Assembly (NCBI GenBank): GCA_017471785.1
Contig: JAFURP010000055.1
Location: 1 to 64,000 of the forward strand
Reading direction: 5' to 3'
From: Clostridia bacterium
GTDB lineage: Bacteria; Bacillota; Clostridia; Christensenellales; Borkfalkiaceae
Length of the DNA: 64,000 nucleotides
Made by a program: the position numbers and the translations under genes. Every line of letters starts with the position of its first letter. Positions within the stretch are counted from its first letter, which is position 1. This document shows positions 12,118-55,616 of the stretch, one piece after another. The notes beneath the pieces are model-generated. The model saw only the letters and a list, made by a program, of their open reading frames with translations, made no database searches and was not told where the DNA came from.

Positions 12118-12205
12118 GGCAAGGACCAAAAAGGACAAGCCGCGTCCCCTTTTGGGGATTGGTTATATAAAAGTAAAAAAGAAAAAAATTTCGGAGGATA
12201 AAGAT

Positions 12206-12406: not shown

Positions 12407-12424
12407 GAAAGGAGATAGAAAATT

Positions 12425-12775: not shown

Positions 12776-12784
12776 TCGGAGAGG

Positions 12785-12834
12785 AAAGCCTTTTTAACTT
12801 GAAAAAAGTATAAAAGGCTTTTTGCATTTTTTCA
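12785..12834 (+). terminator. terminator of infC-rpmI-rplT
   Basis: A 10-bp stem (12785-12794 with 12812-12821) with a 17-nt loop is followed by TTGCATTTTTTC. Confidence 0.8.
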
Positions 12835-12838
12835 AGAA

Positions 12839-13591: not shown

Positions 13592-13617
13592 CAAAGAAAA
13601 ACGAAAGGAGTATTATT

Positions 13618-14406: not shown

Positions 14407-14422
14407 TTTTTTTCTATTTCGT

Positions 14423-14451
14423 TTGACAAATTTTTCCGTTTGTGGTAAAAT
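14423..14451 (+). promoter_or_regulatory. sigma-A promoter of the Mn riboswitch/ATPase unit
   Basis: TTGACA at 14423-14428 and TAAAAT at 14446-14451 with 17 bp spacing. Confidence 0.85.
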
Positions 14452-14464
14452 AAAAATATAATTT

Positions 14465-14636
14465 CCCCGAGGGAGTAGCGAACGCTTAAAGGGCGTAGAT
14501 AAGTCAACATAACGACCTGTTTGGTCTGGCTTATTTTTATCGCGAGACTCGTATATAGCAAAGGATAAGAGCTGTACGACGAGTAAAAGGCGGATTTCCC
14601 CAAGTACGGCAAGGATCGTGCTTGGGGCTTTATTTT
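14465..14636 (+). promoter_or_regulatory. yybP-ykoY manganese riboswitch with terminator
   Basis: The leader contains GGGAGTAGC near 14472, GTCAACATAACGACC near 14503-14517, GGTCTGGC and CGCGAGACTC near 14540-14550, which match the two conserved internal loops of the yybP-ykoY aptamer. An 11-bp stem with one G-U (14598-14608 with 14617-14627) followed by CTTTATTTT forms the expression platform. The class senses Mn2+ and turns on exporters, in agreement with the P-type ATPase that follows. Confidence 0.9.
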
Positions 14637-14661
14637 GTAAAATATGTATAAGGAGTTATAT

Positions 14662-17316: not shown

Positions 17317-17371
17317 TTGCGCGGCGCATTACGCGCGCAATTCGTCGAAAAAGAGAAAATGAGGGTATCGT

Positions 17372-17416
17372 GTCCGCGTTGAAAGGGGTTTTCAACGCGG
17401 ACAAATCAATTTTTTT
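17372..17416 (+). terminator. terminator of the ATPase gene
   Basis: A 13-bp perfect stem (17372-17384 with 17390-17402) with loop GGGGT is followed by AAATCAATTTTTTT. A second GC-rich hairpin (17315-17323 with 17334-17342) directly after the stop has no T tract. Confidence 0.85.
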
Positions 17417-17448
17417 GCGTTTTTGGGCGATATTTTTAGGCAAAACCC

Positions 17449-17477
17449 TTGACCGATTGCGTTAGATATGCTATAAT
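17449..17477 (+). promoter_or_regulatory. sigma-A promoter of the repeat/coiled-coil gene
   Basis: TTGACC at 17449-17454 and TATAAT at 17472-17477 with 17 bp spacing. Confidence 0.85.
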
Positions 17478-17561
17478 ATTAGTTGTAAAAGCAGGAGTTT
17501 AACTTTTTTAAGTAAAAAAGTAGATCAATCCGTACCTGTAAACGAATCTTCGAGGTGTAAA

Positions 17562-19673
17562 ATGGCTGATAGAAAACAATTGGAAACATCTAAAATCGAC
17601 GCGTTGTATTCTTTTCTTTCTCGCGATTTGCAAAGGATGAAAGTAGAGCTTTTGAACGAGATGCGTATGTCCTCCGTTCAAATGAGCTCCGTCTATAAGG
17701 AAATGCAAACCGACAAGGATAAATCCTCGCAAGCGATCTCGCAAGAAATCCGTTATAGCTATAAGCAAAATCAAACCATTTACGACGGTTTGACCACTTT
17801 ACTCACCGAAGAAGTTGCCGAGCGTTTGAATAAAATGGACGAAAAGGCAGCTTCCGTTGAAGAGATGCAATCGGCTATCAAAGCTTCGGTTGCGGAAGCG
17901 GTACAAAAGCTCGAAGCGTTGGAGGGCGGCGTTTCCGCACTCGAAAACGTAGATACGGAAGCCTTGGCGGAAGCGGTCAAGGAAAAGGTCGCGGAGATCC
18001 TTCCCGCGTTGCAGGATTCCCTCGACGAGATCAAATACGGTTATATGCAGCAGCAAGCCGTTTACGACGGTTTGACGGCGCTCATCTCGGGCGAGGTCGT
18101 TTCCAAGCTCGACGATATGCAGGCAAAGCTCGACACGCTCGAGCAGATCGACGCGGCGCTTAATCAGCTCCAAGAAAAGCTTGCCGAGTTCGTCGTTCTC
18201 TACGAGGACAACGATTACAAGGCGGTGATCGAAAGCGTTGCGGAAAAGACGGAGGAGAGCGTAGCCGAGCACAGCCGCCAAGTTCTCGACGCGGTAGCGG
18301 CGATCCCCGTTGCGGAAAACGTAGATTACAACCGTATCGTAGACGAGGTGGGCGATAAGGTGCTCGAGCTTCTCGGCGAGATCATTTTGCCCGAGGAAAA
18401 CAAAGAGCCGGTAGAGGCTATCGTCGATTACGATAGAATTATTTACGGGGCGGCGGAAAAGGTCGTAGAATCCTTGCCCTATCCCGAAAAGGTAAACTAC
18501 CGTCGCATTGACGAGAGCTTCGTAAAAGCGGCGGAGAAGGTAAACGTACAGGTCGGCGAGGAGGCGTTGGCTTCCGCGGTTTCCAACGCGGTCGCACAGG
18601 CGCTTGCGGCGTTCGATATGGACGCTTTGGCTAACGCCGTAGCGGAAAAGATCGTCGTTCCCGAAGCGCAGCCCGTAGCGATCGATTACGACCGCTTGGC
18701 GGATATGGTGGCGGCGAAGATCCCTCCCGTGGAGGTTCCCGAGGCAAAACCCGTCGAGATCGATTACGACCGCTTGTCCGATATGGTAGCGGAAAAGCTT
18801 GCGGCGAACAACGAAACGCTCGTAAGCCTCGTAGAGGAGAAGCTTGCCGAAAGACCTTGTGAAGAGCCTACATACGAACTCGTCGTAGACGAGGAGGGCT
18901 TGGACGCGATCGCGAACAAGGTTTCCGAAGTGCTTTGCAAAAAGTGCGAAGAATGTGAAGCGGCGGATTCCGCACAAGCTCTTGTGGAAGAAGTCGTGGA
19001 AGAAACGGTGGAAGAGCCCGTTGAGGAAGTCGTTGAGGAAGTCGTAGAAGAGGTCGTTGAAGAGGTCGTAGAAGAGCCGGTCGTAGAAGAGGCGGTGACC
19101 GAGGAGCTTGCGGTTGCGGAAGAGCAGTCGTACGAGGAAGTAGACAATCAGCTCGTAGACGCGGAAACGGGACTTGTGGTACGCTTGAAAAAGAGCTTCA
19201 CCGCAAAGATGAAACAAAGCGAAGATCGCGTGAAGAAGTATTATAGCGACGTCAAGAACGAGTTGAAATCGTACAAGAGGATCAACTCCAACGTAAGCTG
19301 GCACGGTGATAGATTTAACTACGGTCGCGATACGATCGCAAAGGTGAACATTTGCGGTAAGACGCTTTGCTTCTATTTGGCGTTGGATCCCGAAGCTCCC
19401 GAATACAAGACGACGGTATATCATCAAAGGAACGTCGGCGCGCAAAAAGCGTATGAAAATACGCCGTTCATGGTCAAGATCAAGAGCGACGCGGCTGCAA
19501 AGAAAGCGCTCCGTTTGGTAGGCTTCCTTGCGGAGAAGATCGGCGCGGTGAAGGCGGACGGCTTCGAGGCGGTGGACTACGTGGAAGAATTTGCTTACGA
19601 ATCGACCAAGCAACTCTTTGACGAGGGGTATATCAAAGCCACGAAAGAAAAGAAAGTCGATCTTGACTTTTAA
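17562..19673 (+). CDS. large acidic repeat and coiled-coil protein with conserved C-terminal domain
   Basis: The 703-residue protein has no signal peptide or membrane segment. The N-terminal third is helical and contains two related units, YKQNQTIYDGLTTLLTEEV (about 67-85) and YMQQQAVYDGLTALISGEV (about 161-179). The middle has four or five copies of a motif of the form (V/I)(D/N)Y(D/N)R(I/L)xDxVxxKV, near 254, 288, 310, 373 and 398. A low-complexity stretch of EE(V/P)VEE repeats follows (about 475-510). The last 165 residues form a globular domain with KSYKRINSNVSWHGDRFNYGR and KTLCFYLALDPEAPEY; I recall this kind of domain from other uncharacterised clostridial proteins. It has its own strong promoter. 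Function unknown; a cytosolic scaffold is a guess. Confidence 0.8.
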   Translation: MADRKQLETSKIDALYSFLSRDLQRMKVELLNEMRMSSVQMSSVYKEMQTDKDKSSQAISQEIRYSYKQNQTIYDGLTTLLTEEVAERLNKMDEKAASVEEMQSAIKASVAEAVQKLEALEGGVSALENVDTEALAEAVKEKVAEILPALQDSLDEIKYGYMQQQAVYDGLTALISGEVVSKLDDMQAKLDTLEQIDAALNQLQEKLAEFVVLYEDNDYKAVIESVAEKTEESVAEHSRQVLDAVAAIPVAENVDYNRIVDEVGDKVLELLGEIILPEENKEPVEAIVDYDRIIYGAAEKVVESLPYPEKVNYRRIDESFVKAAEKVNVQVGEEALASAVSNAVAQALAAFDMDALANAVAEKIVVPEAQPVAIDYDRLADMVAAKIPPVEVPEAKPVEIDYDRLSDMVAEKLAANNETLVSLVEEKLAERPCEEPTYELVVDEEGLDAIANKVSEVLCKKCEECEAADSAQALVEEVVEETVEEPVEEVVEEVVEEVVEEVVEEPVVEEAVTEELAVAEEQSYEEVDNQLVDAETGLVVRLKKSFTAKMKQSEDRVKKYYSDVKNELKSYKRINSNVSWHGDRFNYGRDTIAKVNICGKTLCFYLALDPEAPEYKTTVYHQRNVGAQKAYENTPFMVKIKSDAAAKKALRLVGFLAEKIGAVKADGFEAVDYVEEFAYESTKQLFDEGYIKATKEKKVDLDF

Positions 19674-19707
19674 TCGAACGTAAGAAAAAACGAATACGAA
19701 TCAAGAA

Positions 19708-19745
19708 AGAGAGCTGATAATTCCATATATTCGGCTCTCTATTTT
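19708..19745 (+). terminator. hairpin between the repeat protein gene and RNase J
   Basis: A 10-bp stem with one G-U (19708-19717 with 19731-19740) is followed by ATTTTAT. It may end the upstream transcript or act as a weak attenuator for RNase J. Confidence 0.6.
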
Positions 19746-19784
19746 ATGGGCAAAGTACTTTTGCCAAGGAGAAAGGAAATAGCA

Positions 19785-21725
19785 GTGAAAGAAAGAAAAA
19801 CGGAAAACACCCAAGAATCGAAAAAGCCCACGAATAAAAAACCGTCGGCAAGGGGCAAGAAAAACCCTATGGGCACGGCTTTTGATATCCAAGCGGTCGC
19901 CAACGCACCGCAAAAAACGGCGAAAAAGCCGCGCGTAAACAAAGAAGTCCGCGCGGAAAAACAGCCGCGGACGAAGAAAACGCCCGAGCGCAAGGAAAGC
20001 GTAGACGCGTTGCGCCCCAACGCGGAAAAGAAGCTCCGTATGCCTAAGGAAAAGAAAGCGTCGAAAAAGCAAAAACCCGTCAAGATCATTTTTCTCGGCG
20101 GCGTAGGCGAGATCGGCAAAAACATGACGGCGATCGAATACGGCAACGACGTAATCGTTATTGACGCGGGCTTGACCTTCCCCAACGGCGAGGATATGCC
20201 CGGGATCGATTCGGTCGTGCCCGATATCACCTATCTCACGCAAAATAAGGACAAGGTCCGCGGCGTATTGCTCACCCACGGACACGAGGACCATATCGGC
20301 GGCGTACCTTATTTGATGAAAGAATTAGACTCCTCCACACCCATTTACGGTACCAAGCTGACCTTGATGCTTACCGACAATAAATTACAAGAGCATCATA
20401 TTACGGGTACCCTGCAACGGGTGGTGGAAGCAGGCGACAGGGTGAAGCTGGGCTCGTTCGAGGTGGAATTTATCAACGTAAACCATTCCATTTCCGGCGC
20501 GTGTGCGCTCGCTGTTCGCACCCCCAACGGCTTGATCTATCACAGCGGCGATTTCAAGATAGACCTGACCCCCGTCGCGGGCGAACCTATCGACTTTAAG
20601 CGGATCGCCGAGCTGGGCAAAGAGGGCGTGCTGTTGTATATGGGCGAATCGACCAATATCGAGCGCCAGGGTTATACTATGAGCGAAACGGTGGTCGGCA
20701 CGACGCTCGATCACTTGTTCTCCGAAAATATGACTCGTCGCTTGATCATAGCGACCTTCGCTTCCAACGTGCACCGCTTACAGCAGATCATCGATTTGGC
20801 GGTCAAATACCGTAGAAAGGTGGCGCTTTCGGGGCGTAGTATGTTCAAGGTCGTGGACGCGGCGGTGAAAATTGGAGAACTGAAGATACCCGAGGGCGTA
20901 CTCGTCGATGTCGAAAAGACGAAAAACATGTTTGACGGCGAGCTTTTGATCGTTTCTACCGGTTCGCAAGGGGAGCCTATGAGCGCGCTGACGCGTATGG
21001 CGATGGGCGAATTCAATAAGGTAACGGTGGGCGAAAACGATACCATCATCATTTCCGCAAACCCTATCCCGGGCAACGAAAAAATGATCTATCGGGTCAT
21101 CAACAACCTCTATAAAAAGGGCGCGCACGTCGTTTACGAAAGCTTGGAGAAGATCCACGTTTCGGGACACGCCTGCCAAGAGGAGCACAAAATTTTATAT
21201 TCCTTGTTAAAGCCCAAATTCTTTATCCCCGTACACGGCGAATACCGTCATTTGAAACGCCACGCGCAGCTGGTGGAAGCGTTGGGCGTGCCCGCGCGCA
21301 ATATTTTGATAACCGAGATCGGCAACTGCGTTGAAGTGACGGAAACGGAGATCAAATTGGGCGAAAACGTGCCGGCAGGTACGCGTTTGATCGACGGCGA
21401 GGGTATTGAGGACTACGGCACGAGCGAGGTGATCAAGGAACGCTTGAAGATGTCCTCGGACGGTATTTTTACCGTCGCGCTTGCCGTAACGGGCAACTAC
21501 GTTATCAACGACCCCGTCGTGGAAGCGCACGGCTTCGTGTTTGCGGAGAATACGGGTACGGAAGCGGAGATCAAAACGGTGGTCCAACGTGCCGTCGAAA
21601 GCTACGATTACGCCGACGGCAACAAGGCGGAGCTTTCCAATCACGTAAAAAAGGCGCTTCGAAATTATTTCTATAAAAAAACCAAACAATCCCCCCTCGT
21701 CGCGGTATCCGTACTCGACGTATAG
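19785..21725 (+). CDS. rnj: ribonuclease J with a basic N-terminal extension
   Basis: RNase J is the cytosolic 5'-3' exo- and endoribonuclease of Gram-positive mRNA decay. The metallo-beta-lactamase core starts near residue 98 (VKIIFLGGVGEIGKNMTA) and carries the zinc motif HGHEDH at 165-170, followed by ISGACALAV and HSGDFK. The beta-CASP part has IATFASNVHRLQQI and SGRSMFK, then HVSGHA and PVHGEYRHL. The first 95 residues are rich in Lys, Arg, Pro and Gln and predicted disordered, absent from typical RNase J1 of Bacillus but seen in some other lineages. The GTG at 19785 follows AGGAGAAAGG; an in-frame ATG at 19746 is an alternative that adds 13 residues but would place this ribosome site inside the gene. 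Confidence 0.95.
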   Translation: MKERKTENTQESKKPTNKKPSARGKKNPMGTAFDIQAVANAPQKTAKKPRVNKEVRAEKQPRTKKTPERKESVDALRPNAEKKLRMPKEKKASKKQKPVKIIFLGGVGEIGKNMTAIEYGNDVIVIDAGLTFPNGEDMPGIDSVVPDITYLTQNKDKVRGVLLTHGHEDHIGGVPYLMKELDSSTPIYGTKLTLMLTDNKLQEHHITGTLQRVVEAGDRVKLGSFEVEFINVNHSISGACALAVRTPNGLIYHSGDFKIDLTPVAGEPIDFKRIAELGKEGVLLYMGESTNIERQGYTMSETVVGTTLDHLFSENMTRRLIIATFASNVHRLQQIIDLAVKYRRKVALSGRSMFKVVDAAVKIGELKIPEGVLVDVEKTKNMFDGELLIVSTGSQGEPMSALTRMAMGEFNKVTVGENDTIIISANPIPGNEKMIYRVINNLYKKGAHVVYESLEKIHVSGHACQEEHKILYSLLKPKFFIPVHGEYRHLKRHAQLVEALGVPARNILITEIGNCVEVTETEIKLGENVPAGTRLIDGEGIEDYGTSEVIKERLKMSSDGIFTVALAVTGNYVINDPVVEAHGFVFAENTGTEAEIKTVVQRAVESYDYADGNKAELSNHVKKALRNYFYKKTKQSPLVAVSVLDV

Positions 21726-21743
21726 GCGAAAAGGACGTTACCA

Positions 21744-22385
21744 ATGAAGTATACGGCGTCGCTCGTAAAATTGCATATCGACGAAAGGCTTGCCGCAAAG
21801 CGGGCGGAAGCGCTCGCGCGCGATATTCCCGTTGCGGACGACGAAACCTTGCAGTTTTTGCTGTTGACCTTGCAAATGACGCAGCCTCTCAAGCTCCTCG
21901 AGATCGGTACGGCGGTCGGGCTTTCGGGCGTAGCGATGCTGCAAGCGTGCGAAAACGCGCGGCTTACTACGATCGAGCTGGAGGAGGAGCGGTATTTGGA
22001 GGCGAAAGAAAACTTTGCTTCGTTCGGCGTAGCCGATCGCGTATCGGCGTACCTCGGCGACGCGGGGGAGATCTTGTCTATGATGGACGGGCAGTTCGAT
22101 TTCGTCTTTCTCGACGGACCCAAGGCGCAGTATGAAAAATACCTCTTTGACTTAAAACGCCTGATGAAACGGGGTGCGACCCTCTTTGCCGACGACGTGC
22201 TGTTATACGGCTGGGTGAGCGGAGAGGAGGAAACGCCGCAAAAGCGCCGTTCGATCGTGGAAAAGATACGTTCTTATTTGGAAACGGTCACGGCGGATAA
22301 GGATTTTCATACCTCCGTTTTGAACGTGGGGGACGGCGTGGCGCTTTCCGTGTATACGGGCGGCGAAAGAAATACGAAGGAGTAA
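21744..22385 (+). CDS. trmR: class I O-methyltransferase, likely tRNA 5-hydroxyuridine methyltransferase TrmR
   Basis: The 213-residue protein is a Rossmann SAM methyltransferase of the caffeoyl-CoA/catechol O-methyltransferase family: LLEIGTAVGLSGVAML (about 52-67) binds SAM, then TTIELEEERY, DFVFLDGPKAQYEKY and LFADDVLLYGWV. Family members with this layout in B. subtilis (YrrM) methylate 5-hydroxyuridine at tRNA position 34, and are encoded next to U32 peptidase-like genes. The same pairing here, with only 5 bp between the genes, supports the TrmR role. Alternative small-molecule substrates cannot be excluded. It lies 18 bp after RNase J and may be on that transcript. Confidence 0.8.
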   Translation: MKYTASLVKLHIDERLAAKRAEALARDIPVADDETLQFLLLTLQMTQPLKLLEIGTAVGLSGVAMLQACENARLTTIELEEERYLEAKENFASFGVADRVSAYLGDAGEILSMMDGQFDFVFLDGPKAQYEKYLFDLKRLMKRGATLFADDVLLYGWVSGEEETPQKRRSIVEKIRSYLETVTADKDFHTSVLNVGDGVALSVYTGGERNTKE

Positions 22386-22390
22386 AGAAT

Positions 22391-23590
22391 ATGCGATCGG
22401 AGCTTTTAGCCCCTGCCGGAAGCTATTCCAAATTTTTAACGGCGCTCTATTTCGGTGCGGACGCGGTATATCTGGGTGGCAAGAATTTTTCCTTACGCAC
22501 CTTTGCCGACAATTTCACCGAGGCGGAAATGGCAAGCGCCGTAGCCGCGGCGCACGCGCAAAACAAAAAAGTTTACGTTACGGCGAATATCTACGCGAGA
22601 AACGCCGATTTTTCTATGCTTTTCGACTATTTCCAAGCGCTTGCGGGTTTGGGCGTGGACGGAGTGATCGTCAGCGACGCGGGCGTGGTGTACGCGGCGA
22701 AAAAAGCCGCGCCGAGCCTGCCTATCCACCTTTCCACGCAAGCGAATACGACGAATAAATACGCCGTCAGGTTTTGGGGGGAGCAGGGCGTTTCGCGGGT
22801 CATTCTCGCACGCGAGCTGTCCTTGAAGGAAATCGCCGAGATCCACGAATATAACCCCGATATGGAGTTGGAAGCGTTCGTGCACGGCGCTATGTGTATT
22901 TCGTACAGCGGTCGCTGTCTTTTATCCGATTATTTGGACGGCAGGTCGTCCAACCGCGGCGCGTGCGTACAGTCTTGCAGGTGGCGGTACGAAGTCCGCG
23001 CGCTCAACGCTACGAACGGCAAAAGCGAATGGTTGCCGATCGAACAGGACGAACGCGGCACGTATATTTTCAATAGCAAGGATCTGAATATGCTTGCCCG
23101 TTTACAAGAAATGGAGGGGGCAGGTATCCGTTCGTTTAAGATAGAGGGCAGAATGAAGAGCGGCTATTATTTGGCTACGGTCATCAACGCCTACCGCCGC
23201 TTTATGGACGGCGCGCCGCTTGCCCTTTCGCAAGAGGAGCTTTTGAGCGTATCCCACCGCGAATATACCGAGGCGTACGCGGACGGTAAAAACGCGCAAA
23301 CGGTCAACTACGAGGACGGTATATCCAAGGGCGAATATACCTATATTGCGGACGTTTTAGGTAACGAGGAGGGGTATATCCGAGTGGAGATGCGTAACCG
23401 CTTTAAGGTAGGGGACGAGCTCGAGGTGCTTTCTCCGAGCGCGCATTTCAAACGCTCGTTCACGGTGGAAAGGATGTACGATTTACAGGGCGAGCGGATA
23501 GAGGACGCCAAGCTGGTGCAAGGTATCTATAAGATCGAATGTCCGTTGGCGCTGGAAAAGGGGGATTATCTTCGCCGTAAAAACGGTTGA
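22391..23590 (+). CDS. peptidase U32 family protein, likely tRNA uridine hydroxylation protein (TrhP type)
   Basis: The 399-residue protein begins SELLAPAGSYSKFLTALYFGADAVYLGG, the standard U32 start, and contains the family signature ELEAFVHGAMCISYSGRC with further cysteines in RGACVQSC; these four Cys likely hold an iron-sulfur cluster. A C-terminal small domain (FKVGDELEVLSP) follows. U32 proteins were named peptidases but several act in RNA modification; TrhP proteins use prephenate to hydroxylate tRNA U34, the step before TrmR. Direct adjacency to a TrmR-like gene points to a ho5U to mo5U pathway. A true collagenase-like protease role seems less likely. Confidence 0.85.
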   Translation: MRSELLAPAGSYSKFLTALYFGADAVYLGGKNFSLRTFADNFTEAEMASAVAAAHAQNKKVYVTANIYARNADFSMLFDYFQALAGLGVDGVIVSDAGVVYAAKKAAPSLPIHLSTQANTTNKYAVRFWGEQGVSRVILARELSLKEIAEIHEYNPDMELEAFVHGAMCISYSGRCLLSDYLDGRSSNRGACVQSCRWRYEVRALNATNGKSEWLPIEQDERGTYIFNSKDLNMLARLQEMEGAGIRSFKIEGRMKSGYYLATVINAYRRFMDGAPLALSQEELLSVSHREYTEAYADGKNAQTVNYEDGISKGEYTYIADVLGNEEGYIRVEMRNRFKVGDELEVLSPSAHFKRSFTVERMYDLQGERIEDAKLVQGIYKIECPLALEKGDYLRRKNG

Positions 23591-23601
23591 TAAGGGGAAT
23601 T

Positions 23602-24597
23602 ATGAAAAAGAAAATATTGCTTATCGCAACGGGCGGCACGATCGCCTCGCAGCTTGGCTCGGAGGGCTTGCGTCCCGAATTGAAAGCGGACGCGTTGGTG
23701 AAATTCGTGCCCGAAATATTTGAATTTTGCGACGTGGACGCGGTGCAAATTTACAATATCGACAGCACCAATATAACGCCCGAGCATTGGATAACGCTTG
23801 CAAAAACGATCAAGGACAATTACGAAAAATACGACGGCTTCGTCGTTTGCCACGGCACGGACACTATGTCTTATACGGCGGCAATGCTTTCCTACCTCGT
23901 GCAGCACTCCCCCAAGCCCATCGTTTTGACGGGCTCGCAACAGCCCATCGACAGGGAGGATACGGACGGCCGTATCAATCTTCGCGATAGCTTTTTATAC
24001 GCCGCGAGCGACGCGGCAAGCGACGTGGTGATCGTGTTCCAAGGCAAGGTTATCGCCGGCACGCGCGCCAAAAAGGTGCGCACCAAAAGCTATAACGCGT
24101 TTACGAGCGTGGATTTTCCCCATTTGGCGGTGATCCGCGACGGTAAGGTGATACAGTATATCACGACGCCCAAAAAAAACGAGCCCTCGTTTTATCTCGA
24201 CTTGGACGAGAGGGTGGGGCTCCTCACGCTCACCCCGGGACAAAAGGGGGAGATACTCGACGCGTATTTTAGGTATAACGACGCCGTCGTGCTTTCGGGC
24301 TACGGCACGGGCGGTATCCCCGAGGGGGATTATTACGGCTTTTACGAGGTCATCACCCGTTGGGAGAAAAAAGGAAAAACGCTCGTCGTGACCACGCAGG
24401 TACAGCAAGAGGGTAGCGATATGAACGTCTACCGCGTGGGCAGGGGCTTAAAAAACCGCTTTGATCTTTTGGAAAGCTATTCAATGACGTACGAAAGCAT
24501 CATCACCAAGCTGATGTGGATATTGGCGCAAACGAAGAAGGACGAAACGATAAAGGAGCTCTTTTATAAAACGGTCAATTACGATCTTATTGGATAA
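23602..24597 (+). CDS. ansA: type I L-asparaginase
   Basis: The enzyme hydrolyses Asn to Asp and ammonia. It is 331 residues and has the two catalytic Thr motifs: ATGGTIAS near 8-15 and VVCHGTDTMSYTA near 83-95 with the Asp and Lys nearby (TKVRTKSYNAF in a form KKVRTKSYNAF). No signal peptide is present, which fits the cytosolic type I form. The ATG at 23602 is chosen because AAGGGGA precedes it; an in-frame TTG at 23587 lies before that site. It lies between the U32 gene and an oligopeptidase, all closely spaced, suggesting a cotranscribed amino acid and peptide salvage group. Confidence 0.93.
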   Translation: MKKKILLIATGGTIASQLGSEGLRPELKADALVKFVPEIFEFCDVDAVQIYNIDSTNITPEHWITLAKTIKDNYEKYDGFVVCHGTDTMSYTAAMLSYLVQHSPKPIVLTGSQQPIDREDTDGRINLRDSFLYAASDAASDVVIVFQGKVIAGTRAKKVRTKSYNAFTSVDFPHLAVIRDGKVIQYITTPKKNEPSFYLDLDERVGLLTLTPGQKGEILDAYFRYNDAVVLSGYGTGGIPEGDYYGFYEVITRWEKKGKTLVVTTQVQQEGSDMNVYRVGRGLKNRFDLLESYSMTYESIITKLMWILAQTKKDETIKELFYKTVNYDLIG

Positions 24598-24618
24598 AAG
24601 AGATAGGGCAGGTACGAG

Positions 24619-26337
24619 ATGAATAAAGAAAACGAATTGAAAACCTTTGCGGAGCTACGATACGAACGCCCCGATTTCGAGGCGCTCAAGGATTTTTACG
24701 GCAAGCTCAACGAGCGGCTGAAAAACGCGAAAAGCTTTGAGGAAGTAGACGCGTGTATCAAAGAGGACGAGGCGTATTCCTCGCATATCAGCACGATGAT
24801 GACGATCGTGGAGATCCGTCATACGGTGGATACGAGCGATCGCTTTTACGAACGGGAGGACGAATATATCCACCAAAGCTATCCCGAAGCGATGCCGTAT
24901 ATGCAGGCGTTCAACGAAACGCTTTTGCGTTCGCCCTTCCGCAAGGCTATCGACGAGAAGTACGGCGCGCATTTCTTGCGCTCGGTACAGCTTGGCGTGG
25001 ATAGCTTTTGCGAAAAGAACGTACCGCTTATGCAAGAGGAAAGCGAGCTTACCAACCGCTATCAACGCCTTACCGCCGCTTGTAAAATTCCTTTTCAAGG
25101 GGAGGAACGTAATCTTTACGGAATATTGAAATACTTTTCCGACCCCGATAGAGCGGTCCGCAGGGAAGCGGCGAAAAAGTACGAAGAATTTTTCGAAAAG
25201 AACGATAAGGAAATGGGTAAAATTTTCGATCGCCTCGTCAAGCTCCGCCATCAAATGGGCGTGAATATGGGCTTTGAAAATTATATTCCGCTCGGGTATA
25301 TGCAACAGGGCCGAATGGATTACGACGAAAGTATGGTCGCGGCGTTCCGCGAACAGGTGAAAACGCACCTCGTACCCTTTTGCGAAAAGCTGTATAAGGC
25401 GCAGGCGAAGCGTATCGGCGTGGATAAAATCAAATTTTACGACGAGGAGCTCGTATTCCCCGAGGGGAACGCCGTGCCCGTGGGCGACAGGGCGTACCTC
25501 GTCGAGCAGGCGCGGAAGATGTATCGGGATATGAGCAAGGAAACGGGCGAATTTATCGATTTTATGATCGAGCACGAGCTTATGGATCTTGACAATAAGC
25601 CCAACAAAGCGGCTACGGGATATATGACCGCCTTGAACGATTACAAAGCGCCGTTCGTATATTCGTGCTTTAACGGTACGACGGGGGACGTGGACGTGTT
25701 AACGCACGAAATGGGACACGCGTTCGCGGGGTATGCGGCGATGCGTACGCAGCCTTTGCAAGCGACGTGGAGCGAGCCGACGGATATCGCGGAGATACAC
25801 TCTATGACGATGGAGCAATTCGCCTATCCCTACGCGGAGCTGTTCTTCGGGGATCAGGCGGATAAATATCGCTTTCAGCATTTACAGCAGGCGATCACCT
25901 TCGTACCCTTCGGCGTGGCGGTGGACGAATTTCAGCATATCGTCTACCAAAATCCCGATATGACTCCCGACGAGCGCACGAACGCTTGGCGCGAATTGGA
26001 GAAAAAATATATGCCTTGGCGCGAGTACGACGAAAGCTCGGCGTTCTTCAACCGCGGCGGTTGGTGGTATCATAAATTGCATATCTTCCACTACCCGTTC
26101 TATTATATCAATTACACGCTTACGACGATGGGCGCAATGGAATTCAAGAAAAAGCAGGCGGAGGACAAGCAGGCTTGCTGGCGCGATTATATGACCCTTT
26201 GCAGGCTCGGCGGCTCGCTCGGTTATATCGACACGCTGAAAGCGGCAAACCTCGCCCTGCCCTTTGAAGAGGGCGCGGTGCAAAAAGCCACCTCGTACGC
26301 CTTGCAAATTTTAGAAAAGGAGTTGGGGCAAATATGA
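24619..26337 (+). CDS. M3 family oligoendopeptidase (PepF-like)
   Basis: This cytosolic zinc metallopeptidase cleaves short peptides. The 572-residue length and order fit the M3 oligoendopeptidases: a long helical N-terminus, the zinc motif HEMGH near residue 362 within DVDVLTHEMGHAF, and the third ligand region WSEPTDIAEIHSMTMEQF about 25 residues later. NRGGWWYHKLHIFHYPFYYINYT near the C-terminus carries the conserved Tyr and His of the substrate cleft. The gene overlaps the next aminopeptidase gene by 4 bp (ATGA), so the two are translationally coupled. The pair probably completes intracellular peptide breakdown. Confidence 0.95.
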   Translation: MNKENELKTFAELRYERPDFEALKDFYGKLNERLKNAKSFEEVDACIKEDEAYSSHISTMMTIVEIRHTVDTSDRFYEREDEYIHQSYPEAMPYMQAFNETLLRSPFRKAIDEKYGAHFLRSVQLGVDSFCEKNVPLMQEESELTNRYQRLTAACKIPFQGEERNLYGILKYFSDPDRAVRREAAKKYEEFFEKNDKEMGKIFDRLVKLRHQMGVNMGFENYIPLGYMQQGRMDYDESMVAAFREQVKTHLVPFCEKLYKAQAKRIGVDKIKFYDEELVFPEGNAVPVGDRAYLVEQARKMYRDMSKETGEFIDFMIEHELMDLDNKPNKAATGYMTALNDYKAPFVYSCFNGTTGDVDVLTHEMGHAFAGYAAMRTQPLQATWSEPTDIAEIHSMTMEQFAYPYAELFFGDQADKYRFQHLQQAITFVPFGVAVDEFQHIVYQNPDMTPDERTNAWRELEKKYMPWREYDESSAFFNRGGWWYHKLHIFHYPFYYINYTLTTMGAMEFKKKQAEDKQACWRDYMTLCRLGGSLGYIDTLKAANLALPFEEGAVQKATSYALQILEKELGQI

Positions 26338-49870: not shown

Positions 49871-49885
49871 AAAGATAAAAAAGGG

Positions 49886-49920
49886 AGCTCGGAGCATGAT
49901 CCGAGCTTTTTTTATTTTTT
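49886..49920 (+). terminator. terminator of gltX
   Basis: An 8-bp GC-rich stem (49886-49893 with 49900-49907), loop GCATGA, followed by TTTTTTTATTTTTT. Confidence 0.92.
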
Positions 49921-49997
49921 TGCGATAAAAAACGGCTTTCGGTTATTGATATAGTAGAAAGGAAAAATAAAGGTTGACGATAAAACTCGTTTTCAGA

Positions 49998-50026
49998 TTG
50001 CTTTTTGTCGCCTTTCGTGCTATAAT
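49998..50026 (+). promoter_or_regulatory. promoter of the sigma/anti-sigma operon
   Basis: TTGCTT at 49998-50003 and TATAAT at 50021-50026 with 17 bp spacing. This is a sigma-A type promoter with a weak -35. A second TTGACG (49974) has no matching -10. Confidence 0.7.
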
Positions 50027-50058: not shown

Positions 50059-50625
50059 GTGATGGTGATCGTTGCGCTTACCGCGGAAGAAATCGAAAAC
50101 AAAAACGATAAAATAGAGCAGTTGCTTGCAAGTCTTTCAACGGGCGATACGGCGTCTATGGGTCGTTTATACGACCTGATCAAAACGGACGTGTTCGCGT
50201 ACGCGCTTTCCAAAACGGGCAACAAGCAGGACGCGGACGATATTATGCAAGATACGTTCGTGAAAATATATAAATACGCAAAGCAATATCGGCCCAAGGG
50301 CAAGCCTATGGCTTGGATCATAACGATCGAGCTGAATTTGATCCGACGGCACTTTCAGCTCAAGGCGCGTACGGTAGAGTTTGACGAAAGCTTTGAAAAC
50401 ACGCCGTCGAACGAGAATTTTGAAGAGGGAGTTATCAACGACGCGTTTTTGCGAGAGCTTTTGAAAGCGTTGAACGAAGAGGAGCGCGAGGTCGTTTCCT
50501 TGCATATCGTATCGGGTATGAAGCATAGAGAGATCGCAAAGCTTTTGCAAAGACCGTTATCGACGGTTTTATCAAAATACAATCGCGCGATCAAAAAATT
50601 GCAGGCGATCGTAAAGGAGGAATGA
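50059..50625 (+). CDS. ECF-type RNA polymerase sigma factor
   Basis: The 188-residue protein has region 2 (GRLYDLIKTDVFAYALSKTGNKQDADDIMQDTFVKIYKY, residues about 34-72, with MQDTFVKIYKY as the -10 recognition core) and region 4 (about 135-188) with LNEEEREVVSLHIVSGMKHREIAKLL and PLSTVLSKYNRAIKKLQ as the HTH. There is no region 1 or 3. The GTG at 50059 is chosen as the first in frame near GAGGGG at 50041; an ATG at 50062 is equivalent. The next gene starts 3 bp after the stop and encodes a membrane protein with RsgI-like features, the likely anti-sigma. The group cannot be assigned by eye. Confidence 0.92.
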   Translation: MMVIVALTAEEIENKNDKIEQLLASLSTGDTASMGRLYDLIKTDVFAYALSKTGNKQDADDIMQDTFVKIYKYAKQYRPKGKPMAWIITIELNLIRRHFQLKARTVEFDESFENTPSNENFEEGVINDAFLRELLKALNEEEREVVSLHIVSGMKHREIAKLLQRPLSTVLSKYNRAIKKLQAIVKEE

Positions 50626-50628
50626 TCA

Positions 50629-51705
50629 ATGAAACAAAAATGGAAAGACAAAATTATAGACGCGTATAAGAGCGAAACGCCCGATAATCGGGAACGTATT
50701 CTTTCGGCTTGTGAAAACGAAACGCAATATTCCGTGTGCCCGGACGAGCGAAAAACGCGCAAGCTGCCCGTGTTTTTCCGTAGAGCCGTTTCGTTTGTGG
50801 CGTGCTTGGTCTTATTCGGCTTGGGCTTATTCGTCGGACAAATCATACCCGAAACGCAACCCGTCGCAACGGCGGAAACCTGCGTATATCTCGACGTAAA
50901 TCCCAGCTTAGAGCTTGCGCTCGATAAAAACGATACCGTTCTTTCCTGTACGCCGGCAAATACCGACGCGGAAACGCTGTTAAACGGAATGAAGCTGGAG
51001 GGCTTGGAATTAAAAACGGCGTTAAACGCGATCGTCGGAGCGATGTACGTCAACGGTTATCTTTCGTCGGAGGACAATTCTATGCTTATCAGCGTGGATA
51101 CGACCAATGAAAATAATACGAGCGACTTTTTAAGCTATATTACCAATCAAGTAAACGAGGTTTTCGTAAATTCGGAAATGGAATGTGCTATTATCGCCCA
51201 AGCCGTTAAGGCGGACGAGGCCTTGAAGCAAAGAGCTGAAGAACAAGGTATATCCGTCGGAAAGATGTATTTGCTCGATAAAATGATCGGCAGTATGGAA
51301 TTGATAACGGAAGAGGATATTGCCGAGCTTGCGAATATGTCTATAAAGGATCTCAATTTAATGTACTCCGCTAAGCCCGACGACGAAGAAGAAAAGCCGA
51401 GCGACGAGTTGATCTCGGGATCGGTGAACGTCAAAGTGGGAACGGAGGACGCTTTGTCCGCAGTATTGACGGAGCTTGGCAAAACGGAGGACGAAGTGGA
51501 AGAAGCCCGTATCTTTATTTTACCGTCCAAGCGCGGAGAAACGAAGGTAGTATATTCGGTAACGGTAAAATTTTATAACGATAAAGAGATATACAAATAC
51601 GAGGTGGACTATCAAACGGGCGAGCTCGAAAGGCTCGACGAGGAGGACGGCTTCCCGTCGCACGGATCCGAGCGTCAACAGCCGGGGAACGGATTTGACG
51701 ATTGA
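50629..51705 (+). CDS. membrane anti-sigma factor with RsgI-like domain and PepSY-like tail
   Basis: The 358-residue protein has a cytosolic N-terminus of about 50 residues, one membrane helix (about 52-72) and an outer part. Right after the helix comes CVYLDVNPSLELALDKNDTV (85-104), which matches the central domain of RsgI anti-sigma-I factors, including the Asn-Pro pair (91-92) that in RsgI proteins is an autoproteolysis site. The C-terminal region near 270-345 (ALSAVLTELGKTEDEVEEA, then YEVDYQTGELERLDEED) resembles a PepSY domain. The cytosolic part differs from RsgI_N and has no zinc motif. Its overlap-like spacing (3 bp, AAGGAGG) with the ECF sigma gene argues that it holds that sigma at the membrane until an outer signal releases it. 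Confidence 0.82.
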   Translation: MKQKWKDKIIDAYKSETPDNRERILSACENETQYSVCPDERKTRKLPVFFRRAVSFVACLVLFGLGLFVGQIIPETQPVATAETCVYLDVNPSLELALDKNDTVLSCTPANTDAETLLNGMKLEGLELKTALNAIVGAMYVNGYLSSEDNSMLISVDTTNENNTSDFLSYITNQVNEVFVNSEMECAIIAQAVKADEALKQRAEEQGISVGKMYLLDKMIGSMELITEEDIAELANMSIKDLNLMYSAKPDDEEEKPSDELISGSVNVKVGTEDALSAVLTELGKTEDEVEEARIFILPSKRGETKVVYSVTVKFYNDKEIYKYEVDYQTGELERLDEEDGFPSHGSERQQPGNGFDD

Positions 51706-51728
51706 TTTTTTCCTTTGAAAAACGAAAA

Positions 51729-51762
51729 AAAGACGAAACGAAAAAAAGTTTCGTCTTTTTTT
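51729..51762 (+). terminator. terminator of the sigma/anti-sigma operon
   Basis: An 11-bp perfect stem (51729-51739 with 51748-51758), loop GAAAAAAA, followed by TTTT. Between here and 51889 there is no consensus sigma-A promoter; AAAAGGAGGG at 51808 precedes a two-codon ATG-GGA-TGA. Confidence 0.85.
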
Positions 51763-51888
51763 GCGATAAAATCCCGTTCAACTTTATTGATTAGGTGAAA
51801 AGGCTAAAAAAGGAGGGTAAAATACAATGGGATGATCGTCGATAACGCACACCAAAATTAAAAAATAATCCCAAAGGAGAAATAAAAA

Positions 51889-52890
51889 ATGAAAAGAATT
51901 TTTAAGTTATTAAGTATGGTAGTAGGCTTTTGTTTGCTTTGCGCAAGCTTTTTCGGTTGTAATTCCACCACGACGGCAAGCGCTGAGGAGCTTTCGTATA
52001 TCAGCATGAGGATCAACCCCGAGATCGAGCTGGTCGTTGACGAAGAGGGTGAAGTGGTTGCCGTAAACGCGATCAACGAGGACGGCGAAACGGTGCTTTG
52101 CGAGCTGGAGCTTATCGGTATGACCGCGGAGGAAGCGGGGGAGGCGTTTACCGCTATGGCGACCGAGCTCGGCTTTATCGACGTGGACGGGGAGGACGCG
52201 ACCGTCTATATTTTAGTCGAAGGCAACGATACGGAGCTTATGGAAAAGCTTGAAGAAAAAATCACCGAAAAAATAAACGGGTTTTTCGACAAGAAGGGTA
52301 TTTTCGGAAAGGTATCTCCCGAAGAATTGGAAGCGTACGAAGCGCTTGCAGCCGAATGGGAGGTTTCCCTGAAGGACGCAAGAATGATCAGCCGTATCCT
52401 CGAGCTCTATCCCGAAATGACCGTAGAAGAAATTTTGGCGCTTTCGTTTGAAGAAAGGATCGAGCTCATCAAAGAAGATTCCGTTAAAAACGGAATGCCG
52501 ATCGATCTGCGTAACGAGTATAGGGAAGCCGTTGACGCGGTAAAAGAGGAATACGCGGAGCTTTTCGAGCTTGCCAAGGAGTTGAAGGATCTTGAAACGC
52601 AGCTTCAAAACGAAAGCTTGAGCGAAGAAGATCGTGCGCTTATCCAAGAAGAATACGATACGAAAAAAGCGGAATACGACGAGCTTAAAAAGCAGTACGA
52701 GGAAGCCGTTGCGGCGTTAAAAGCGGAAAAGAGCGAAAAGGCGGAGGAAATAGAGAACGAGATAAAAGAAAAGGCGAAAGAGCGCCGCGACGAATTTGCG
52801 GAAAAGCTGAAAGAACACGAAGATAAGCTTCAAGAACAAAAGGAAGAAATAGAGGATAAGATCAAGCAATGGCGCGAAAACCGCAAATGA
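51889..52890 (+). CDS. lipoprotein with the same RsgI-like domain plus a long charged coiled coil
   Basis: The 333-residue protein has a signal peptide with lipobox FFGC (Cys24). Residues 36-95 begin YISMRINPEIELVVDEEGEV and continue through a region ending GFIDVDGEDATVYILVEGND; this matches the outer domain of the anti-sigma encoded just upstream (CVYLDVNPSLELALDKNDTV), with the Asn-Pro pair kept at 43-44. From about 210 to the end the protein is an almost unbroken Glu/Lys/Ala coiled coil (KAEYDELKKQYEEAVAALK and similar heptads). It lacks a cytosolic anti-sigma part, so it cannot bind the sigma directly. It could be a regulon target, a sensor partner or a decoy. It ends before a strong terminator. 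Confidence 0.82.
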   Translation: MKRIFKLLSMVVGFCLLCASFFGCNSTTTASAEELSYISMRINPEIELVVDEEGEVVAVNAINEDGETVLCELELIGMTAEEAGEAFTAMATELGFIDVDGEDATVYILVEGNDTELMEKLEEKITEKINGFFDKKGIFGKVSPEELEAYEALAAEWEVSLKDARMISRILELYPEMTVEEILALSFEERIELIKEDSVKNGMPIDLRNEYREAVDAVKEEYAELFELAKELKDLETQLQNESLSEEDRALIQEEYDTKKAEYDELKKQYEEAVAALKAEKSEKAEEIENEIKEKAKERRDEFAEKLKEHEDKLQEQKEEIEDKIKQWRENRK

Positions 52891-53070: not shown

Positions 53071-54450
53071 ATGAAGATGCCCGTTTTGGACAAGAACTTT
53101 TATCCTATGATCAAGGCGCTCAACGATTTCGAGGAAACCGTAAAAAAGAGCGGTAAGAGCGTAGAGGTTACGCTCGTGGCGGAAAGGAGCGGCGGCTATA
53201 ACTACGTGTATACCTATAACGCGCTGCAGGACGGCGTGAACGACGCGCTCAATTTCCGCGTGGCGGAGCGTTTGGCAAAGACGATTTTGTGGGTAGTTGG
53301 CGGCTTCAAAATTTCCGTAGCAGGCAGCAGGTCCGTTTACGAATATTTGAAAAAGGCGTACACGATGGAGGGCTTGCGCGCGTTCGACGTAGAGTTTATG
53401 AGCGGCGTTTACGAAAGACCTTTCGAGGTGGAATGGCTTGAAAAGGACCAAATTCCCGCGCAAAAGAACAATTCCGTACGCGTAGGCGGCTATTTGAACG
53501 GTTGCCGTATCGGCTTCGACGCGGGCGGCTCGGATAGAAAGGTGAGCGCGGTGATCGACGGCGAGGTCGTTTACAGCGAGGAGGTCGTTTGGAATCCGAA
53601 GATTACCGAGGACCCCACCTATCACTATAACGAAATTTTGACGGCTATGAAAACGGCGGCTTCCAAAATGCCCACCGTGGACGCGATCGGCGTTTCTTCC
53701 GCAGGCGTGTACGTGGATAACAAGATCATGGTCGCTTCCCTGTTCATCAAGGTAGACAAGAAAAAGCACGGCGATTACGTAAAGAATATGTATATCAACG
53801 TAGCCAAGGAAATGAGCAAGGAAATGGGTAAGGAGATCCCCCTTGAAGTAGCCAACGACGGCGACGTTACCGCGCTTGCGGGCGCTATCGACTTGAACGA
53901 TAACGGCGTGCTTGGTATCGCTATGGGTACGAGCGAGGCGGTCGGATATATCAATACGGACGGCGGCATCAACGGTTGGCTTTCCGAGCTTGCGTTCGCG
54001 CCCGTCGATTTTAACGAAAGCGCGATGCAAGACGAATGGAGCGGCGACTTCGGCGTGGGCTGTAAATATTTCTCGCAGGACGCGGTCATCAAGCTTGCCG
54101 AAGCGGGCGGTCATAAATTTGCGGACGGGCTTACGCCGGCGCAAAAGCTCAAAGAAGTACAGGCTATGATGGACGAGGGCGACGCGCTCGCGGCGCAAAT
54201 TTACGAGGATATCGGCGTATACCTTGCCCACACCATTCCTTTCTACGCTAAATTTTACGATATCAAGCATATGCTTTTGCTCGGCCGCGTTATGGGCGGC
54301 AAGGGCGGCGATATCATTCTTGCCACCTGCAAAAAGGTTTTGGCGGAGGAATATCCCGCGTTCGCGAGCCTCGATATCGGACTTCCCGACGAAACGAACA
54401 GACGCGTCGGACAAAGCATTGCGGCGGCTTCTTTGCCTGCGAACGCGTAA
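53071..54450 (+). CDS. ROK family sugar kinase-like protein with N-terminal extension
   Basis: The 459-residue protein has a ROK/actin-like ATPase core from about residue 146: GCRIGFDAGGSDRKVSAVIDG carries the phosphate-1 motif (DAGGS where DxGGT is usual), then DAIGVSSAGVYV, EVANDGDVTALAGA near 258-272 with the catalytic Asp region, and IAMGTSEAVGY near 288. The ROK zinc motif with clustered Cys (CGxxGCxE) is absent. The first 145 residues form an extra domain of unknown role. The gene is 17 bp upstream of nagA, so a GlcNAc, ManNAc or related amino-sugar kinase is likely, feeding GlcNAc-6-phosphate to NagA. It could also be a sugar-sensing regulator, but no DNA-binding domain is visible. Confidence 0.82.
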   Translation: MKMPVLDKNFYPMIKALNDFEETVKKSGKSVEVTLVAERSGGYNYVYTYNALQDGVNDALNFRVAERLAKTILWVVGGFKISVAGSRSVYEYLKKAYTMEGLRAFDVEFMSGVYERPFEVEWLEKDQIPAQKNNSVRVGGYLNGCRIGFDAGGSDRKVSAVIDGEVVYSEEVVWNPKITEDPTYHYNEILTAMKTAASKMPTVDAIGVSSAGVYVDNKIMVASLFIKVDKKKHGDYVKNMYINVAKEMSKEMGKEIPLEVANDGDVTALAGAIDLNDNGVLGIAMGTSEAVGYINTDGGINGWLSELAFAPVDFNESAMQDEWSGDFGVGCKYFSQDAVIKLAEAGGHKFADGLTPAQKLKEVQAMMDEGDALAAQIYEDIGVYLAHTIPFYAKFYDIKHMLLLGRVMGGKGGDIILATCKKVLAEEYPAFASLDIGLPDETNRRVGQSIAAASLPANA

Positions 54451-54467: not shown

Positions 54468-55616
54468 ATGAAATGTTTCAAAAACGCAACCGTATACGTA
54501 GAGGGTGAGGGCTTAAAGCAAACGAGCGTTTGCTTTGACGAAAAGATCGAAAAAATTTCCCGTTGCTGCGTGAGCGGCGCGGAGGAGATCGCGCTTCCCG
54601 AGGACGCGATCGTCGTACCCGGGTTTATCGACCAGCACATTCACGGCGCGGGCGGCTCGGACGGAATGGACGGTACGGTAGAGGATATTGCGATCATCGC
54701 AAGGACGGTCGCGGCGGAGGGTACGACCTCTTTCCTCGTAACGACTATGACCCAAAGCAAGGAAAACATCACCAAGGCGATGCAGGCGGTCAAGGCGTAT
54801 CGCGAAGCGGACTCCAAAGAGGGCGCGCGCGTGGTAGGTATCCACTTGGAAGGACCGTTTATCGCGGCGGCGCACAAGGGCGCGCAACCGCTCGAATACG
54901 TGGCGAAATCGGATATCGAGGTGTTCGACGAATACAACGCGGCAAGCGGGAACGCGATCAAGATCGTATCCCTTGCGCCCGAAACGGAGGGCGCGGAGGC
55001 GCTTATTCGTCATTTGAGCGCGAATAAGATCGTCGCTTCCGTCGGTCATTCGGGCGCGAAATACGCGGACGTGCAAAAGGCGGTGGAAGCGGGCGCTTGT
55101 AACGTTACGCATACCTACAACGCGCAAACGCCGTTGCACCATAGAGAGATCGGCGTAGTGGGCAGCGCTATGCTTATCGACGAGCTCAACTGTGAGCTGA
55201 TCGCCGACACGATCCACGTTTCCGTTCCGGCTATGAAATTGCTCGTAAAAAACAAGCCTGCGGACAAGCTTACCTTGATCACCGACGCTATGCGCGCAAA
55301 GGGTATTCCCGACGGCGTGAGCGAGCTGGGCGGTCAAACGGTATACGTGAAAAACGGGGAAGCAAGACTTGCCGACGGCACGCTTGCCGGTAGCGTTTTG
55401 CGTATGAACAGAGCCGTTCAAAACCTGGTGGAAAAGGTGGGCGTGCCCTTTGAAAAAGCGGTGGATTGCGCCACGCTCAATCCCGCCAAAAACCTTGGTA
55501 TCGACGACGAGGCAGGCAGTATCAAGGTCGGCAAGCGCGCGGATTTCACCGTGCTCAATAGCAGCTACGACGTATTGATGACCGTTCGCGGCGGCGAGGT
55601 TATCTACAAGGCTTAA
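54468..55616 (+). CDS. nagA: N-acetylglucosamine-6-phosphate deacetylase
   Basis: This amidohydrolase removes the acetyl group from GlcNAc-6-phosphate, making glucosamine-6-phosphate for glycolysis or wall synthesis. The 382 residues have the metal motif PGFIDQHIHGAGG near 50-62, HLEGPFIAAAHKGAQ near 126-140, VGHSGAKYADV near 189-199, THTYNAQTPLHHRE near 211-224, and the catalytic Asp in LITDAMRAKG near 270. All match NagA. AAAGGAG precedes the ATG. The gene partners with the ROK kinase-like gene; nagB is not in the window. Confidence 0.96.
   Translation: MKCFKNATVYVEGEGLKQTSVCFDEKIEKISRCCVSGAEEIALPEDAIVVPGFIDQHIHGAGGSDGMDGTVEDIAIIARTVAAEGTTSFLVTTMTQSKENITKAMQAVKAYREADSKEGARVVGIHLEGPFIAAAHKGAQPLEYVAKSDIEVFDEYNAASGNAIKIVSLAPETEGAEALIRHLSANKIVASVGHSGAKYADVQKAVEAGACNVTHTYNAQTPLHHREIGVVGSAMLIDELNCELIADTIHVSVPAMKLLVKNKPADKLTLITDAMRAKGIPDGVSELGGQTVYVKNGEARLADGTLAGSVLRMNRAVQNLVEKVGVPFEKAVDCATLNPAKNLGIDDEAGSIKVGKRADFTVLNSSYDVLMTVRGGEVIYKA

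Follow-up and report, generated by a model that had tools for sequence, protein, structure and literature searches.

What is an RsgI-type outer domain doing on two neighbouring proteins, an anti-sigma factor and a lipoprotein, beside a sigma factor that is not SigI? In the window, by which we mean the whole 64,000-nt stretch of DNA that was analysed, three consecutive forward-strand genes encode an ECF-type sigma factor of 188 aa (50059-50625; start codon uncertain), a one-pass anti-sigma factor of 358 aa (50629-51705) that begins after a gap of 3 nt, and a separate SEAL-domain lipoprotein of 333 aa (51889-52890), and the coordinates given for this arrangement in an earlier note hold. A terminator-like stem-loop found by pattern scan (49880-49913, forward strand) follows the upstream glutamyl-tRNA synthetase gene, and a stem-loop with a T-run and a 15-pair stem, a probable forward-strand terminator, lies between the anti-sigma and lipoprotein genes (51725-51762; reported by the scan on the reverse strand, with the forward-strand T-run counted into the stem). 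Pfam and NCBIfam profiles assign only sigma2 and sigma4 domains to the sigma factor (Sigma70_r2, E 3e-12; Sigma70_r4_2, E 2e-11; TIGR02937, 79.9 bits against a cut-off of 42.9), the composition that defines ECF sigmas, whereas the SigI partner of an RsgI-family protein combines sigma2 with SigI-C. A search of 25 genomes of the genus for the SigI-binding RsgI_N domain (PF12791) gave nothing at E <= 0.001; in the window's own genome the best score was E 0.66, and it lay elsewhere. With RsgI_N absent and sigma4 present, a SigI-type system is ruled out.

The anti-sigma is made up of a short cytosolic part, a transmembrane helix at about residues 48-72, a SEAL (RsgI_M) domain at residues 85-216 (50881-51276; Pfam E 1.4e-28; 100.6 bits against the curated cut-off of 25.3 for PF23750) and a PepSY-like tail. 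The lipoprotein carries the N-terminal signal with a lipobox cysteine that defines bacterial lipoproteins (FFGC24 after a hydrophobic stretch; C24 at 51958-51960), followed by its own SEAL domain at residues 36-137 (51994-52299; Pfam E 7e-19; 69.1 bits against the same cut-off). C24 is invariant in 15 aligned lipoproteins of 19-77% identity and kept at 90% or more in a set of 30. By sequence and by structure, the best solved matches of both outer domains are RsgI SEAL domains: the AlphaFold2 model of the anti-sigma domain matches 8hdj_B (Z 17.3, rmsd 2.4 over 151 residues) and that of the lipoprotein domain matches 8t9n_B (Z 14.7, rmsd 2.1 over 105 residues). Profiles, models and solved structures thus agree with the earlier note that the two proteins bear the same RsgI-type domain. 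Its PepSY-like tail stands as a predicted fold (anti-sigma residues 268-336; 51430-51636) that resembles YpeB/YpmB PepSY domains at Z 7-9 (5boi, 8.7; 2gu3, 7.4; 4exr, 7.2), but not as a Pfam assignment, the E-value of 8.6e-4 falling short of the cut-off. No carbohydrate-binding module was matched in a Pfam profile search of the locus proteins. At its C-terminal end the lipoprotein has an 87-residue helix (residues 246-332; 52624-52884; AlphaFold2 pLDDT mostly above 85) in which 60% of residues are charged. The coiled coil of the earlier note is not of the ordinary heptad kind (p 0.69 by shuffling); the hydrophobic residues instead recur with an 11-residue period (p about 0.001 by shuffling) that is also seen in relatives. 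Profile searches returned weak apolipoprotein-like matches, and those found by structure for the long helix are of a generic helical kind and functionally uninformative.

A bipartite ECF-type element precedes both the sigma operon and the lipoprotein gene on the forward strand, giving the predicted sigma-dependent promoters P1 (49920-49962, TTGCGATAAAA-N13-TATTGATATAGTAGAAAGG) and P2 (51761-51803, TTGCGATAAAA-N13-TATTGATTAGGTGAAAAGG). These are the only two sites in the 64 kb, with none in shuffles, and also the only two in the whole 1.8-Mb assembly (83% complete); in three genomes exactly two sites per genome were found when up to 3 mismatches were allowed, against none in controls. A simpler method, which compared the two upstream regions pair by pair without gaps, gave values within or near the null for most loci, window included; a leave-group-out matrix and whole-genome pattern counts were used in its place. 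In 14 of the 24 loci, four of these in Acholeplasmataceae, the matrix ranked the sites upstream of the sigma and lipoprotein genes first and second among 9,000-26,000 positions; the two were not both in the top two at the other 10, and L091, L097, L116 and L118 gave no clear element by this matrix. Across 41 genomes, 10 of the 11 matches to a GCAAYAAAA-type pattern lie directly before SEAL-module genes. The pattern matched nothing when spaced N12-13, the correct spacing being N14 after TGCAAYAAAA. In many relatives outside the window group the -35 box includes the AAC triad seen in ECF promoters and the -10 core is GT(T/A); the published rules for ECF promoters name a -35 AAC and a GT-type -10 core (PMC6056542, PMC10575876). 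The -35 box of the window group, GCGATAAAA, is without the canonical AAC, and its boxes read GCGAT and TATT against the ECF-type -35 AAC and -10 XGTY. A housekeeping-type promoter before the sigma gene (TTGCTT-N17-TATAAT with TGn; 49998-50026, forward strand) was read from the sequence, its 3/6 and 6/6 box matches lying under the scan filter, and relatives' sigma upstream regions have similar sequence. Before the lipoprotein, where the earlier note had found no sigma-A promoter, one weak sigma-70-like match does exist (GTGAAA-17-TAAAAT, 9/12, 51795-51823; scan total near chance) and looks poorly kept in relatives. The shared element at 51761-51803, which the earlier note did not see, fits the control by the local sigma that it had supposed.

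The triad occurs at 27 distinct loci, window included, so its expected conservation in related genomes is confirmed; its genes are inherited together in many Clostridia of the gut and also in Acholeplasmataceae, where the anti-sigma is a different one without a detectable SEAL domain and the lipoprotein gene shares an operon with the sigma gene. Some lipoprotein genes have no sigma gene within about 6 kb, and lone ones at other loci (L096, L100, L102 and L107) also have the element. (The broad alignment of lipoproteins proved too diverse to serve as a search query.) Because both genes are preceded by related elements in Acholeplasmataceae as well as in other gut Clostridia, the lipoprotein is the conserved predicted target of the sigma and, as had been proposed, very probably a member of its regulon. 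This much would also suit a lipoprotein that is pure output, an effector made on sigma activation, for instance one that protects the membrane surface and loses its ectodomain once the SEAL is cut, with no share in sensing. The common promoter element, the lone genes that carry it away from the sigma (L096, L100 and L107), and the 11-residue amphipathic helix repeat and weak apolipoprotein-like matches, which fit a membrane-lying role, all agree with such an effector. In three genomes (L106, L126 and L129), however, the whole lipoprotein ectodomain is built into the anti-sigma, with 44-48% identity to the L123 lipoprotein over about 365-390 aa, and two of the three have no other SEAL gene. The fusions, easier to understand with sensing, suggest that the lipoprotein has a part in it, and we regard an effector without sensing as a serious but unlikely alternative.

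Self-cleavage of the SEAL domain is the built-in first cut in SigI-RsgI signalling, and the Asn-Pro at which RsgI domains are cut, between strands 1 and 2, is present in both proteins of the locus, as N91-P92 in the anti-sigma (50899-50904; invariant in 21 anti-sigmas) and as N43-P44 in the lipoprotein (52015-52020; modelled between strands 36-41 and 45-50), each a predicted self-cleavage site. P92 falls on the first residue of chain B when aligned with solved RsgI domains, and P44 on the first residue of the cut RsgI chains; chains B of 8heq, 8hdj, 8hep, 8her and 8u9o all begin at the residue aligned to this proline, as the cut form would predict. The periplasmic domain of RsgI is an autocleavage domain whose strand beta1 separates before RseP acts (PMC12203970); our account of RsgI cleavage draws on that paper and the PDB chains. 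The site might instead be a mere structural turn in the lipoproteins, and one SEAL relative (L133) does have Asp-Pro in its place, so the fold tolerates a change there. Asn-Pro is nevertheless invariant across aligned sets of 15 and 30 proteins and kept in all 58 lipoprotein SEAL domains collected, despite full-length identity down to about 20%, and we therefore consider a turn without cleavage rather improbable.

A tree of SEAL domains shows 3-4 switches between the anti-sigma and lipoprotein labels, where shuffled labels give about 22. The anti-sigma ectodomain was therefore not duplicated in tandem in recent times: the lipoprotein belongs to an old lineage of its own and is no copy of the adjoining anti-sigma. 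This bears on whether the lipoprotein SEAL could act, as the earlier note supposed, as a competitor or shield, a homologous decoy strand-swapping with or capping the anti-sigma SEAL to protect it from RseP, much as RseB shields RseA. A common fold, a shared membrane face and adjacent genes are consistent with such a role, but the two SEAL types are old and distinct, and in Acholeplasmataceae the lipoprotein keeps its link to an anti-sigma in which no SEAL is detectable, so that neither direct SEAL-SEAL contact nor competition between homologous domains can be general; we think this explanation very unlikely. Equally hard to credit is that a different regulator binds the element, or that it is a housekeeping promoter of a variant kind, with the sigma and lipoprotein as merely co-regulated neighbours, for despite the missing AAC of the window group and the TATAAT-like -10 box of some relatives (L100), two sites per genome are far too few for housekeeping promoters, the 14-nt spacing is fixed, the boxes are ECF-like and, even in distant taxa, the sigma gene has the element in front of it.

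We lean slightly towards a closed, self-regulating envelope-signalling circuit in which the lipoprotein ectodomain serves at once as an output and as a partner in sensing. The ECF sigma would be kept at the membrane by the anti-sigma, whose SEAL domain, by analogy with RsgI, would cut itself at Asn91-Pro92 during folding and leave halves joined by a shared beta-sheet. A signal would pull or knock the ectodomain off, upon which an RseP-type protease (an RseP-like M50 gene is present, E 3.5e-61) would cut the stub and free the sigma. Freed sigma would then, on strong evidence from the sequence, read its own operon and the lipoprotein gene through the dedicated element. The lipoprotein, anchored by lipid on C24, is predicted to cut itself at N43-P44, so that its SEAL-plus-long-helix ectodomain would be tied to a lipidated peptide of roughly 20 residues by non-covalent contacts alone and could be released. 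Made when the sigma fires, this ectodomain would act at the membrane surface and may in turn inform the anti-sigma of the condition of the envelope, most plausibly with a damping sign; the natural fusions, together with co-regulation, are the basis for that step. Acholeplasmataceae are wall-less, and their possession of the system suggests that the signal comes from the membrane and not from the cell wall. More tentatively, the self-cleaving lipoprotein could be a detachable, separate sensor half of the anti-sigma, its ectodomain tied to a lipidated peptide by strand pairing alone, made by the sigma that it helps to control and, on this reading, joined to the anti-sigma at least once in evolution. 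It would then serve as a releasable fuse for mechanical or membrane state, even in bacteria that lack a cell wall.

SEAL domain proteins were reportedly described by Brogan et al. in PNAS in 2023; those at this locus have the same fold and predicted self-cleavage, but one is here a lipid-anchored protein without transmembrane or cytosolic part. Canonical ECF pairs released by regulated proteolysis include B. subtilis SigW-RsiW and E. coli RpoE-RseA, which the present pair resembles in an anti-sigma with a short cytosolic part and transmembrane helix and, by prediction, in an autoregulated sigma with an ECF-type promoter; unlike theirs, its site-1 cut would be the anti-sigma's own, with no site-1 protease needed. 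E. coli RseB likewise adds a third protein, outside the membrane, to a sigma/anti-sigma pair, but it is soluble and of another family, whereas the one here is a lipoprotein whose domain is predicted to cut itself. With SigI-RsgI systems (B. subtilis RsgI; C. thermocellum RsgI1-9), in which RseP makes the intramembrane cut and the sigma is autoregulated, the locus shares a one-pass anti-sigma, a SEAL/RsgI_M outer domain, the Asn-Pro site and, by prediction, that cut and that autoregulation (PMC12203970, PMC6056542). It differs from them in its ECF (sigma2-sigma4) sigma, the lack of RsgI_N in the genus and of a matched carbohydrate-binding module, and the addition of a SEAL lipoprotein as target. 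We found no published description of such a lipoprotein in the literature searched; new here are the conserved Asn-Pro site in both SEAL domains, the old and distinct lineage of the lipoprotein, which accompanies the sigma even where the anti-sigma has no detectable SEAL, the fusions of its ectodomain to the anti-sigma and, as predicted from sequence, the shared dedicated promoter element and the lipoprotein as the sigma's only other target. The Asn-Pro site, the element and the fusions had gone unnoticed in the earlier note. The SEAL domain here serves a different sigma class from SigI, and, more unusually, sits on a lipoprotein that has itself no route for signalling into the cytosol. With two promoter sites per genome the system would form a complete minimal circuit that could be reconstructed in B. 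subtilis, and how the lipoprotein communicates with the anti-sigma could be tested directly with the natural fusions.

The sigma factor (50059-50625), anti-sigma (50629-51705) and lipoprotein (51889-52890) genes lie where the earlier note had placed them, all on the forward strand. The sigma factor contains only sigma2 and sigma4 domains by Pfam and NCBIfam profiles, and a Pfam profile search bore out the proposed RsgI-type outer domain (RsgI_M, PF23750, hereafter SEAL), with both the anti-sigma and the lipoprotein scoring far above the cut-off. These are the only two RsgI_M domains in their own assembly (1.80 Mb, 83% complete), and RseP-like machinery is also encoded in the genome. The closest named records are Clostridia metagenome-assembled genomes (MAGs) from ruminant gut. 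The genes that follow are ordinary neighbours: a ROK-like protein scoring just under the cut-off (53071-54450) and, directly after it, an amidohydrolase (54468-55616), which we take to resemble N-acetylglucosamine-6-phosphate deacetylase.

AlphaFold2 models built on family alignments (pLDDT 90.3 for the lipoprotein, 82.0 for the anti-sigma) share the order beta-beta-beta-alpha-alpha-beta-alpha-beta. Compared via common templates, both outer domains proved to have the expected RsgI-type fold, as each best matches a solved RsgI SEAL domain: 8t9n_B for the lipoprotein (Z 14.7, rmsd 2.1 over 105 residues) and 8hdj_B for the anti-sigma (Z 17.3, rmsd 2.4 over 151), the next unrelated match to the anti-sigma SEAL part reaching only Z 5.6. 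The triad is conserved in relatives, with all three genes together at 27 distinct loci, either in the sigma-anti-lipoprotein order of the window or in the order lipoprotein-sigma-anti (L035-L037, L088, L090 and L091). Across the order, 163 of 396 genomes contain RsgI_M, not all of them as part of a triad, and a profile search found RsgI_N, the SigI-binding part, in none of the genus's 25 genomes.

We found the element TTGCGATAAAA-N13-TATTRATW at two sites in the window, one ahead of the sigma operon (49920-49962) and one ahead of the lipoprotein gene (51761-51803); both have a gap of 13, where 8-20 was permitted, and 100 shuffles gave none. A looser form has no further sites anywhere in the assembly, and a longer form with up to three mismatches gave exactly two sites per genome in three genomes (reversed control, 0). 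A weight matrix whose training set excluded the group being tested ranked the sites of the sigma and the lipoprotein first and second of all locus positions at 14 of the 24 loci having both genes, four Acholeplasmataceae loci among them; related gut loci outside two defined groups trained one another, which makes their results less independent. In the lipoprotein-first operons L088 and L090 the element stands solely before the lipoprotein, the first gene. Among 41 relatives, TGCAAYAAAA-N14-GTTTAATA (one mismatch) gave 11 matches, 10 directly before SEAL-module genes (control, 2). The only match without an adjoining SEAL gene (G011:C76:7774-7805, locus L159) may be due to chance. The boxes agree in many relatives with the ECF rules of AAC at -35 (PMC6056542) and XGTY at -10 (PMC10575876), while the window group deviates (GCGAT, TATT). 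A housekeeping-like promoter also precedes the sigma operon (49998-50026). The earlier note saw no sigma-A promoter before the lipoprotein; a promoter scan likewise gave nothing strong there, but did return one weak sigma-70-like match. The local sigma very probably regulates the lipoprotein gene.

In matched Clostridium thermocellum RsgI PDB entries, chains B start at the residue aligned to the Pro of an Asn-Pro (NP) site (P92 in the anti-sigma, P44 in the lipoprotein), which is where a chain should begin if the cut form was deposited. According to PMC12203970, the periplasmic domain of RsgI undergoes self-cleavage, after which strand 1 comes away before RseP cuts. In the lipoprotein model, strands 36-41 and 45-50 flank N43-P44. 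Every one of 21 aligned anti-sigmas has NP, as do all of 15 lipoproteins from a profile search, a sample blind for NP, and all of 30 collected partly with a pattern containing NP and so not fully blind; it is kept in 58/58 distinct lipoprotein SEALs. Given this invariance, the start of the matched chains and the RsgI precedent, predicted self-cleavage of the lipoprotein at N43-P44 is likely. A true RsgI of Ruminococcus (L133:5791-6585, forward strand) has Asp-Pro as its scissile site, and a 1411-aa protein of unusual architecture (L132:3628-7863, forward strand) carries repeated MBG domains and a mid-protein SEAL with NP.

The lipoprotein ends in an 87-residue helix, 60% charged. Its hydrophobic residues recur with period 11, not 7, in 9/9 proteins examined, which came from gut Clostridia and Acholeplasmataceae; 11-residue repeats are a known feature both of right-handed coiled coils and of helices that lie on lipid.

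Lipoprotein and anti-sigma domains separate almost cleanly in the SEAL tree (a short alignment with weak deep forks), which rules out the lipoprotein as a copy of the neighbouring anti-sigma. In three loci (L106, L126 and L129) a single anti-sigma joins the usual N-terminus and transmembrane segment to an entire lipoprotein ectodomain, its SEAL nesting within the lipoprotein clade, and no second SEAL gene was found in the fusion genomes G420 and G421 (MAGs, as assembled). The Acholeplasmataceae operons (L092-L095) run sigma, anti-sigma, SEAL lipoprotein; the anti-sigma (about 4820-5937 in L092, L094 and L095; 1216-2310 in L093) has no Pfam match to SEAL in the three scanned (L092, L094, L095), and its ectodomain of ~290 aa no significant Pfam match. 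Two of these genomes have a single SEAL domain each. In Haloplasma (L097:4053-6915 and L173/L180), a sigma gene is accompanied by one for a zf-HC2-like protein, with a SEAL membrane protein encoded downstream, and another contig holds a second set of sigma, SEAL anti-sigma and SEAL lipoprotein.

Neither the SEAL domain nor the sigma class is of a new kind. As far as shown by the literature searched, the 2023 SEAL paper apart, which may include some of these architectures, the pairing of SEAL with an ECF sigma in the absence of RsgI_N, a predicted self-cutting lipoprotein as conserved target, and lipoprotein-ectodomain/anti-sigma fusions are undescribed. The reading we lean toward is a closed circuit, with the lipoprotein as both output and sensing partner. 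The alternatives overlap with it in part: that the lipoprotein is a pure output is possible but doubtful, and that it is a homologous decoy is improbable. The occurrence of these genes in bacteria without a wall points to a signal at the membrane.
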